Of a stretch of 35,068 nucleotides of DNA, positions 29,063 to 32,651 are shown piece after piece. Made by a program: the position numbers and the translations under genes. Source of the DNA: Deltaproteobacteria bacterium (lineage in GTDB: Bacteria > Myxococcota_A > Polyangia > DRWM01); contig JAFDER010000014.1 in the NCBI GenBank assembly GCA_019310245.1, forward strand, positions 1 through 35,068, read 5' to 3'. A model generated the notes under the pieces. That model ran no database searches and was not told the DNA's origin. It saw nothing but the letters and a program-made list of their open reading frames with translations. How positions within the stretch are numbered: the first letter of the stretch is position 1; each line of letters begins with the position of its first letter.

Positions 29063-29929
29063 ATGATGAGAAAGCTCCTTCTAACGGTGATCGTCACAGC
29101 GCTCGCGCTTCCGGCCTGTGGCAGCTCCATCAAGTCGACGGGAGACGCGAACGACGATGCCGCCGGGGACGCGGGCGGGGACGCGAACCTCGACATGACG
29201 CCCGAGGACGGCGCGGACGATCCGGTGGGCGACATGGTCCCGGAGATCCCTCCAAACTGCGGGGACGGCGACGTGGACGATGACGAGGAGTGCGACGACG
29301 GAAACGAGACGAGCGGCGACGGATGCGAGAACGACTGCACGTGGACCTGCGAGGGGGCCTCCGAGTGCGACGACTCCGACGCGTGCACGGACGACGCGTG
29401 CGACACGTCCTCACACACCTGCTCGCACGAGACGATCACCTGCTCGGACTCGGACGACTGCACGGTCGACGGCTGCGACTCGAGCACCGGATGCACGTTC
29501 ACGTCCCTGCCCGACTGGTACCTTGACGGGGACGACGACGGGTACGGATCGCCTCTCGCGGAGAGCGTGTGCGCGGAGACGGCGCCCACCGGGTACGTGG
29601 ACAACGACGACGACTGCTGCGACGCCTACCCCATCGTGAGGCCCAACCAGACGGCCTACTTCGTCGAGCCCTACTCCTGCCCTGGAGGCACGACCACCCA
29701 TCCCACGCACGACTACAACTGCGACGGGGTGGAGGAGCGGCGCTACACCGTGGCCGGCTACTGCGACACGGGCATGGGCGGCGCCTGCTCCGTGCACGAG
29801 GGCTGGGCAGGGGACTCCATCCCCGGCTGCGGCTCGACCGGCGACTGGCTCGTCTCCTGCGCCATGGACTCGGGCGGCGGCGGGTGCCTCCCCAGCGCCG
29901 GGCGGTCCCAGATCCAGACCTGCCGCTGA
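29063..29929 (+). CDS. Cysteine-rich lipoprotein with Myxococcus Cys-rich repeat and MopE-like motif
   Basis: 288 residues. ATG 29063 follows GGGAGG (29051-29056). The signal ends LPA|C (Cys19) and is followed by an acidic Asp/Gly/Ala linker to about residue 63. Residues 66-96 (CGDGDVDDDEECDDGN ... GDGCENDC) are the Myxococcus cysteine-rich repeat (DUF4215 type). The next 50 residues hold further Cys pairs (CDDSDACTDDACD, CSDSDDCTVDGCD). DWYLDGDDDGYG at about 151-162 and VDNDDDCCDAYP resemble the MopE-type putative metal-binding motif, rich in Asp and calcium-like. It is probably a surface lipoprotein stabilised by disulfides and metal; its role is unknown. The lipobox sequel CGSSIKST resembles CGSTIKAT of the lipoprotein at 31902. 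Confidence 0.88.
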   Translation: MMRKLLLTVIVTALALPACGSSIKSTGDANDDAAGDAGGDANLDMTPEDGADDPVGDMVPEIPPNCGDGDVDDDEECDDGNETSGDGCENDCTWTCEGASECDDSDACTDDACDTSSHTCSHETITCSDSDDCTVDGCDSSTGCTFTSLPDWYLDGDDDGYGSPLAESVCAETAPTGYVDNDDDCCDAYPIVRPNQTAYFVEPYSCPGGTTTHPTHDYNCDGVEERRYTVAGYCDTGMGGACSVHEGWAGDSIPGCGSTGDWLVSCAMDSGGGGCLPSAGRSQIQTCR

Positions 29930-29950: not shown

Positions 29951-29979
29951 TTGTCGAACCCCCCCTCCGGTGATATAGA
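29951..29979 (+). promoter_or_regulatory. Extended -10 promoter of the histone-fold gene
   Basis: TTGTCG (29951-29956), 17 bases, then TGATATAGA, that is a TG-n-TATAGA extended -10 with the hexamer at 29974-29979. Transcription would start near 29986, about 35 nt before ATG 30021. The placement argues against translation starting at the upstream ATG 29979, which lies inside the promoter. Confidence 0.5.
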
Positions 29980-30020
29980 TGGGCCCATCTCCAGCCATGA
30001 AGCTGGGGTGGATGTGGAAA

Positions 30021-30221
30021 ATGGCCAAGAAGAAGCAGGTGGAGACGCTGATCGTAGGTAGCAAGGTCAAGGCAGCCCTGCGCGAGGCAGGCGTGAACGT
30101 GGGTGGAGGCACTCTCGAGGCGCTCAACGGCATGCTGCACTGGTACATCGAGCAGGCCGCCAAGCGCGCGCAGGCCAACGGCCGCAAGACCGTCAGGCCG
30201 CACGACGTGATGATCCCCTGA
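30021..30221 (+). CDS. Small bacterial histone-fold protein
   Basis: 66 residues and nothing but a histone fold, like archaeal histones (HMfB, 69) and the Bdellovibrio histone. Helix 1 covers about 12-22 (VGSKVKAALRE), the long helix 2 about 30-53 (GTLEALNGMLHWYIEQAAKRAQAN), then the loop GRKTVRPHDV at 54-63. This loop carries the Arg-x-Thr and Asp pattern (RKTV..xD) that pins the histone dimer and contacts DNA in the HMf/CBF-NF-Y family. Helix 3 is very short, as in known bacterial histones. The protein is basic at its N-terminus (MAKKKQ). It is likely a DNA-binding dimer, architectural or nucleoid-associated. ATG 30021 follows GGGGTGG; the in-frame ATG 29979 is rejected because it overlaps the promoter. 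It has its own promoter and two downstream hairpins, so it is a single-gene unit. Confidence 0.87.
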   Translation: MAKKKQVETLIVGSKVKAALREAGVNVGGGTLEALNGMLHWYIEQAAKRAQANGRKTVRPHDVMIP

Positions 30222-30239: not shown

Positions 30240-30258
30240 GGACGCTACTTTGGCGTCC
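30240..30258 (+). terminator. Hairpin 1 after the histone-fold gene
   Basis: GGACGC / GCGTCC stem of 6 bp with a 7-nt loop (TACTTTG), 19 bases after the stop. No U-run follows; together with the next hairpin it may stop or stabilise the short histone transcript. Confidence 0.4.
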
Positions 30259-30274
30259 ACGGCCTTGCGAGGCG

Positions 30275-30291
30275 CCGGGGCATCGCCCCGG
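30275..30291 (+). terminator. Hairpin 2 after the histone-fold gene
   Basis: A compact GC stem, CCGGGGC / GCCCCGG (7 bp), closes a 3-nt ATC loop and is followed by TTGATC. It lies between the histone gene and the hydrolase gene at 30339. Confidence 0.45.
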
Positions 30292-30338
30292 TTGATCGTC
30301 TCCTTCATCTCCCTGCCGACCCTGAAGAAGGGCATGCG

Positions 30339-31320: not shown

Positions 31321-31815
31321 ATGAAGCACGCAACTATCCTGTCACTGTGTCTCGCATTGGCCTTCGCGGCAGGCTGCGACCAGGATACGAACACGTGGGG
31401 CGACGCCATCACGGACACGATCACCGAGACGCCGGGCGACACGATAGGCGACACCACACCCGACGTGCCGGCCGATGCACCGGTTGACACGCCGGCGGAC
31501 ACCCCCGTGGACACTCCGGCGGACACCCCCGTGGACACCCCGGCGGACACCCCCGTGGACACCCCGGCGGACGAGGGCGGCTCGTCCGAGATCGCACACT
31601 TCTGCAACGTGGTCTGCATCCAGTGCTTCGGAGGCTCTGCGCCCTGGATGTCCCGACCCGCGGACCAGTGCGTCGACGAGTGCATCGACGACTTCTCGGA
31701 CTGCTCGTCGAGCGTCATCCCCGCCATCCTCGCCTGCCCGGGCGGGGACGACTGCCCGGCCGGCGTGATGGGCTTCGCCACGTGCGTGTCGCCTTACACC
31801 TGCCTGCTGTCCTAG
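31321..31815 (+). CDS. Small lipoprotein with Asp-Thr-Pro repeat linker and Cys-rich C-terminal domain
   Basis: 164 residues. The signal ends AAG|C (Cys19). An Asp/Thr/Pro linker to about residue 85 includes 4-5 copies of an 8-residue unit (DTPADTPV) encoded by a 24-bp tandem repeat. The C-terminal 75 residues hold about ten cysteines (CNVVCIQC, CVDECIDDFSDC, CPGGDDC, TC, TC), suggesting a small disulfide-bonded domain. No family recognised. ATG 31321 follows GGGAGGG. The linker presumably spaces the domain from the membrane; copy number of the repeat may vary between strains. Confidence 0.85.
   Translation: MKHATILSLCLALAFAAGCDQDTNTWGDAITDTITETPGDTIGDTTPDVPADAPVDTPADTPVDTPADTPVDTPADTPVDTPADEGGSSEIAHFCNVVCIQCFGGSAPWMSRPADQCVDECIDDFSDCSSSVIPAILACPGGDDCPAGVMGFATCVSPYTCLLS
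31462..31572 (+). repeat. 24-bp in-frame tandem repeat (about 4.6 copies)
   Basis: The unit GACACCCCGGCGGACACCCC + CGTG starts at 31486, 31510 and 31534, with a partial copy at 31558-31572 and a degenerate copy at 31462. Because 24 is a multiple of 3, gain or loss of units keeps the frame of the lipoprotein gene. Confidence 0.9.
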
Positions 31816-31866
31816 CGCTCTGCACGGGCTGAAACCCCGGCCTCACTACACGGCACATGGATCTAG

Positions 31867-31875
31867 TGCTACACT
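31867..31875 (+). promoter_or_regulatory. Extended -10 for the lipoprotein gene at 31902
   Basis: TG-C-TACACT (hexamer 31870-31875) lies 26 bases upstream of ATG 31902. No -35 match is visible at the right distance, as is common for extended -10 promoters. Confidence 0.35.
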
Positions 31876-31901
31876 GCATACGACAAGACAGGAGGCTCGA
31901 C

Positions 31902-32651
31902 ATGAGAACAGTGCGTTCCCTCTCACTGGCCGCCGCGGCCGTCGCCCTCCTCCTGGGCTGCGGCTCCACGATCAAGGCGACCTTTGACGGCTTCAGCGAC
32001 TCCTCCACGGACGGAACGGGTGACACCTCCGGCGATACGGGCTCGGACACGCCGGGCGATGCGCCCGTCGACGCCCGGCCTGACGGCACAGGTGAGGGCG
32101 AGTGCGAGGACGGCCTGGACAACGACGGCGACGACCTCATCGACATGGACGACTGGGACTGCGAGCACATCTACGACAGCGTGGAGGGGCCCGAATCGGA
32201 CGACTGCACCATGGACACCCACTGTGCGGACGGCTGGGAGGAGTGCAACGACGAGACGGGCGAGTGCTACGACCCGCCGCAGGGCGAGCTGTGCGACGAG
32301 TGCGGCGACAGCGCCGACTGCGGCGACGGCGTGATGGGAGAGAGTCCCGACCGCGACTTCTGCGTCAACTACGGCTACAACTGGAACTGCTCCAAGGACT
32401 GCGACGGCGGCTGGGACTGCCCGCGCGGGTTCCGGTGCGACCTCGGCGACGACGGCCTCCCGCCCGGCTTCTGCCGGCCGTACACCATCTCGTGCAACGC
32501 CATGGACCTCATCGGCGAGGGCTGCACCGGCGAGTACGACTGTCTCGGCGCCATGCCCTGCCACGGGGGCATCTGCACGTACGAGTGCGAGACCAACCGC
32601 GAGTGCCCCGACACCACCACCTGCACGGGCGGCTGGTGCATCCCGGACTGA
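31902..32651 (+). CDS. Cysteine-rich acidic lipoprotein
   Basis: 249 residues starting at ATG 31902 after AGGAGG (31890-31895). The signal ends LLG|C (Cys20), followed by CGSTIKAT and an Asp/Thr/Gly linker. ECEDGLDNDGDDLIDMDD at about 82-99 is the Asp-rich CxDGxDND motif common in myxobacterial surface proteins (MopE-like, metal-binding by family expectation). The remaining 150 residues carry about 20 Cys in patterns like CDECGDSADCGDG, CSKDCDGGWDC and CETNRECPDTTTCTGGWC, suggesting several small disulfide-rich modules. Function unknown; probably surface exposed. It is related in style, and in the residues right after the lipobox, to the lipoprotein at 29063. Confidence 0.87.
   Translation: MRTVRSLSLAAAAVALLLGCGSTIKATFDGFSDSSTDGTGDTSGDTGSDTPGDAPVDARPDGTGEGECEDGLDNDGDDLIDMDDWDCEHIYDSVEGPESDDCTMDTHCADGWEECNDETGECYDPPQGELCDECGDSADCGDGVMGESPDRDFCVNYGYNWNCSKDCDGGWDCPRGFRCDLGDDGLPPGFCRPYTISCNAMDLIGEGCTGEYDCLGAMPCHGGICTYECETNRECPDTTTCTGGWCIPD

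Follow-up and report, generated by a model that had tools for sequence, protein, structure and literature searches.

Only two bacterial histones have been characterized both structurally and functionally, according to PMC12701072. HLp from Leptospira perolatii (PDB 9QT0-9QT2) is described in that paper as a DNA-wrapping, face-to-face (FtF) tetramer in Leptospira, which is without HU. The HLp tetramer is made by R49, N53, and R55, with R55 and D62 forming a clamp, and DNA is contacted by residues 13-15, 17, 21, 27, 29, 56, and 57 (PMC12701072). PMC11390915 takes a short third helix as the definition of alpha3 histones and the face-to-face tetramer as that of FtF histones; the FtF signature given there is a conserved R and N together with an RxTxxxxD motif, with the R and N missing from dimer-type histones. 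The published partners of R49 include the end of the opposite chain, namely, F63 in HLp and the residue-55 carboxyl in D4GZE0 of Haloferax. A chain end one residue past the motif D that contacts R49 of the opposite dimer is thus described for D4GZE0 and seen in HLp, in accounts that do not state it as defining.

FtF histones have already been published from Myxococcota; what the protein examined here adds is a branch character, a tryptophan at position 41 (W41) together with a C-terminal tail. Neither PMC11390915 nor PMC12701072 uses the word tryptophan in its main text, and their passages on the C terminus describe no such tail.

The histone gene and its start codon

The window (the entire 35-kb stretch of DNA that we analyzed) contains a 66-codon open reading frame (ORF) plus TGA that sits exactly at 30021-30221 on the plus strand and encodes MAKKKQVETLIVGSKVKAALREAGVNVGGGTLEALNGMLHWYIEQAAKRAQANGRKTVRPHDVMIP, with a pI of 10.2 (Table 1). 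Judged by its sequence and its predicted fold, this ORF codes for a genuine bacterial histone. A chance ORF was rejected, given E values of 7e-10 against the solved histone HLp and down to 8e-22 against proteins of other genomes. Two points favor the start at 30021: relatives begin with MAK(K/A)K at the matching place, and the upstream ATG at 29979 coincides in part with the -10-like site. That ATG is the only one farther upstream that would give a long form (80 amino acids), which we rejected on the same two grounds. In close relatives, AGGGGTA or GGAGG stands at a position comparable to that of the GGGGTGG of the histone gene.

Table 1. Features of the histone locus (window coordinates)
Feature	Position	Strand	Basis
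Promoter-like TTGTCG-N17-TATAGA, with TGA ahead of the -10 (extended -10)	29951..29979	+	Pattern search; putative function
Possible Shine-Dalgarno-like GGGGTGG, 9 nt upstream of ATG	30005..30011	+	Sequence; weak, putative
FtF-type alpha3 histone, 66 aa	30021..30221 (stop codon counted)	+	Sequence, homology, fold
W41 codon, branch marker residue	30141..30143	+	W41 in 28/79 R49/N53 histones
Codons R49 to D62: R49, N53, R55 (HLp tetramer), T57 (DNA), D62 (R55 clamp)	30165..30206	+	HLp numbering, ungapped
C-terminal V63-M-I-P past D62, branch-specific extension	30207..30218	+	Tail survey of R49/N53 histones
Hairpin 1, GGACGCTACTTTGGCGTCC	30240..30258	+	-12.4 kcal/mol; 0/200 shuffles equally low; without T-run
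Hairpin 2, GCCGGGGC-ATC-GCCCCGGT	30274..30292	+	2/200 shuffles equally low for 43-nt stretch; tail TGATCGTC, T-poor

Profile searches and predicted fold

None of the curated Pfam and NCBIfam models scored above its cut-off for the window protein. The NCBIfam model archaea_histone (NF043032) scored 20 bits, with its cut-off at 50; among the Pfam models, Bromo_TP and CENP-T_C matched under cut-off, and no match to CBFD_NFYB_HMF was reported. In the profile comparison that the original prediction had proposed, these curated models were weak, but a family profile matched the solved histones (HLp, 4e-26; HBb, 3e-21; HTkC, 8e-16), where the HLp and HBb values are partly circular because fragments of both proteins were rows of the profile. 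A phmmer search against solved histones placed the same three proteins in the same order (7.3e-10, 2.4e-5, and 5e-3, respectively).

The single chain, predicted from an input of four sequences, has helices at residues 10-22, 31-52, and 60-63 (mean pLDDT, 79; residues 1-8 of low confidence). Foldseek ranked HLp first (E value, 3.7e-4; TM score, 0.75/0.88; target TM score, 0.88; 45% identity), followed by HBb and HTkC, while nucleosomal histones reached TM scores of ∼0.5 to 0.6 on the query and HMfA reached ∼0.5. The predicted order of helix, loop, middle helix (31-52), loop, and short helix is in line with the fold that had been anticipated. In the model the third helix has only 4 residues, short of the 10-residue third helix that accompanies a long second helix in the HMf type, and the 66 residues hold one histone fold, where a DUF1931 pseudodimer has two per chain. 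The truncated third helix (3 to 4 residues) and shortened second helix are those of FtF histones. On this modeled and sequence evidence, the window protein is a truncated, alpha3-type histone and not a nucleosomal archaeal histone. Of the archaeal-type histone fold originally proposed, the histone fold itself is retained by the modeled helices, but the archaeal nucleosomal form is not, with alpha2 and alpha3 both shortened.

Signature residues and comparison with known histones

The window protein aligns with HLp over 63 residues without gaps, 27 of which are identical (43%). Both proteins have R49, N53, R55, T57, D62, S14-K15, K17, G29, and a short third helix, and all five FtF profile residues (R48, N52, R54, T56, and D61, corresponding to R49, N53, R55, T57, and D62 here) are present. 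They differ at W41/A41, Q45/D45, K56/T56, H61/T61, and R21/K21 (window protein/HLp), and the window protein runs three residues further at its C terminus. Because of the ungapped HLp alignment and the shared signature and DNA-contact residues, we assign the window protein to the FtF type by its residues, with the tetramer itself taken from HLp. The exception is the chain end, which in HLp and D4GZE0 lies one residue past the motif D; here, MIP extends beyond V63.

HTkC (PDB 9F2C; PMC11390915) and haloarchaeal FtF histones have the RxT....D motif and R49, as does the window protein, but they are without W41, and HTkC has E at position 53. The four haloarchaeal FtF proteins that we compared also have N53 and RKT; they differ in being without a lysine-rich start and in ending at RDL, one residue past D62. 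Plasmid matches occur among the haloarchaeal FtF histones. Short-ending FtF-type histones of the same class (for instance, L074, LRSDGELIQAVS...NNRSTVRPYDL) share R49, N53, R55, T57, D62, the basic start, and a downstream hairpin with the window gene, but they mostly have D or E at position 41 and an RST or RGT loop, end at position 63, and occupy a separate branch of the tree.

HBb of Bdellovibrio (Bd0055; PDB 8CMP and 8FVX; PMC10627809, PMC11317129), the histone to which the locus had first been likened, resembles the window protein in its alpha3-type fold, the SK of helix 1, GRKTV, and residues past D62. However, it is a dimer type without R49/N53, has a one-residue insertion near position 24, and binds DNA as a dimer; that likeness gives way to HLp, with which the window protein groups by sequence clustering, signature, and fold rank. 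We consider it unlikely that the window histone works as an HBb-like, DNA-bending dimer without a stable tetramer: R49 and N53 are both present (the pair occurs in 79/96 aligned sequences, and 16 of the 17 rows without it have D or E at position 53), HLp stands above HBb by both sequence and fold, and a tree built on few columns (56) groups HBb with the dimer-like rows and away from the W41 side, even though HBb is the second-best fold match, RKT (K56) and residues past D62 are as in HBb, and the extra C-terminal residues might obstruct face-to-face closure.

Distribution and the W41/C-tail branch

A histone match was found in 21/59 near genomes, 79/241 genomes of the same class, and 47/189 genomes of a phylum sample. 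Bacterial histones had been called still few, which holds only in a relative sense, since 79 of the 241 genomes sampled in this class have a match. The four other genomes of the same order, one of them 99% complete, gave no histone match, and so near kin manage without one. The window's own genome (70% complete) has a single histone by the family profile. One close relative lies on a Planctomycetota-labelled contig; a search of 12 genomes from that class found such a histone in 8 of them.

We collected 79 R49/N53 histones, the window protein counted among them. Three to five residues past D62 were present in all 27 complete W41 members, compared with 2 of 50 other R49/N53 histones; the remaining 48 stop exactly at position 63. 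The two exceptions (L040 and L043), which have the tail without W41, were placed on the W41 side of the tree. W41 rows also mostly share N26 (27/28), N36 (27/28), Q45 (24/28), and K56 (27/28), and all eight histones of the Planctomycetota-labelled class have both W41 and the tail. Since the sequences share ancestry and do not count as independent cases, the pairing of W41 with the tail marks a clade and not repeated coupling. HTkC and its neighbors also fell within the W41 side of the tree, a placement that is probably a long-branch artifact.

Several related loci depart from the single-domain arrangement or combine types. Two genomes, G075 (L024 and L053) and G141 (L022 and L069), hold W41/tail and short-ending FtF-type histones together, which could permit mixed tetramers. 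In L119:7022-7399 (G103:C194:26521-26898), two R49/N53-type folds, the second with W41, are fused head to tail in a 140-amino-acid ORF, a natural doublet of the FtF-type family. L075 (G044:C195:2881-3045, minus strand) has a divergent fold with W41 but H49/Q53; upstream in the same open frame is the apparent end of a helix-turn-helix domain, a possible regulator-histone fusion.

Promoter-like site, hairpins, and neighboring genes

The site at 29951-29979 is the window's only TTGNNN-N16-18-TATA and its only TGNTATA (two loose patterns, both strands of the 35 kb), and the stretch ahead of the histone gene has a lower GC content (59%). A stricter sigma-70 consensus scan made no promoter call at this site. 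The proposed extended -10 promoter was recovered as a promoter-like element with TGA, the sole match of its pattern in the window. Downstream of the stop codon, the two hairpins had z scores of -4.5 and -3.1 in the shuffle comparison. The hairpins of the original prediction are therefore real features of the sequence, but their reading as terminators stands only in part, since both are without a T-run and a terminator scan called neither. In many relatives a strong hairpin follows the gene, frequently with a T-rich tail, and a single-gene unit accordingly looks common to the histone relatives at the level of sequence. Overall, the proposal of a stand-alone histone gene preceded by a promoter-like site of its own was borne out, with the histone supported by sequence and fold comparison and the layout isolated. 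Rfam gave no match near the histone gene.

The upstream neighbor is a lipoprotein-like ORF ending at 29929, and the downstream neighbor, from 30339, is a metallo-beta-lactamase-fold gene (Pfam Lactamase_B). Asp-rich lipoprotein-like ORFs surround the histone (29063-29929, 31321-31815, and 31857-32651), one of which has the simple repeat DTPVDTPADTP; the ORF at 29063-29929 has a Dicty_CTDC match and a DUF4215 match under cut-off. We found no conserved neighborhood like the SMC/MAP one of Leptospira: kinase matches aside, no tested window gene adjoins the histone genes of relatives. This absence of shared neighbors fits a general DNA protein and not a part of an operon. A contaminant contig was likewise not supported, as the tetranucleotide pattern of the window is closer to the other contigs of its own genome than to the DNA of most relatives.

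Discussion

The best reading of the window histone, by analogy with HLp, is probably a sequence-independent nucleoid protein that wraps DNA as a tetramer. The chain is predicted to fold as two helices and a short third helix joined by loops and would dimerize head to tail. Two such dimers would then close face to face through R49, N53, and R55 into a ring-like tetramer, as in HLp. By comparison with the HLp-DNA crystals, the positively charged rim would be encircled by ∼60 bp of DNA, with S14, K15, K17, and R21 in helix 1 and G29, K56, and T57 in the loops holding it in place. The gene would be transcribed alone, and the protein would act in the nucleoid beside several HU proteins.

By their spacing, positions 41, 45, 49, and 53 share one face of helix 2, the tetramer-contact side of HLp. 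The window chain is three residues longer, so the known contact between R49 and the chain end cannot recur here in identical form. Because W41 and Q45 lie on the R49/N53 side of helix 2 and because the contact uses the chain end, it is a reasonable inference, from sequence and from the HLp analogy, that the dimer-dimer contact is enlarged or altered in the W41 branch. More tentatively, the W41/C-tail branch may be an FtF structural variant of this class and of the Planctomycetota-labelled class. In such a variant, Trp41 and Gln45 would join with the hydrophobic residues at the C terminus in a different dimer-dimer interface, either tighter or open so that further tetramers could be added, and the complex with DNA would not resemble the 60-bp ring of HLp; we consider this possible, at less than even chances.

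Four HU-family genes, all above the Pfam cut-off, are present in the window's own genome (L121-L124, on G000 contigs C419, C474, C436, and C384), and so the window histone is not the sole candidate nucleoid protein, unlike in Leptospira, from which HU is absent. We consider it unlikely that the gene instead encodes an accessory histone, scarce or of recent arrival (carried in by a phage or another mobile element, for example), that serves few sites or special conditions, since no phage genes occur among the ten neighbors scanned, the window's composition matches its genome, many families of the class have relatives, and the promoter-like site of the gene is an isolated one, despite the patchy presence within the order, the four HU-family genes, similar-core histones on viral contigs, and close kin in the Planctomycetota-labelled class that suggest transfer or deep ancestry.

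With a narrower family alignment (A2), we found that two viral contigs encode single-domain histones that have R49, N53, and RKT..D, L134:3977-4171 (IMGVR_UViG_3300009506_000024) and L135:3974-4165 (IMGVR_UViG_3300023444_000001). Genes resembling those for DNA polymerase and RecA lie next to one of the two. Both differ from published phage histones, which are described in PMC11390915 as without the RxTxxxD motif and with a C-terminal helical domain. Annotated phage records held no match to the histone.

For the window histone as a DNA-wrapping nucleoid protein, strong expression is plausible, with an abundance that we presume. Because the tetramer residues are conserved in this branch while the chain end that contacts them is changed, it would allow a direct test of what determines the assembly state of bacterial histones, and the genome described here would offer a case of a histone coexisting with several HU proteins.
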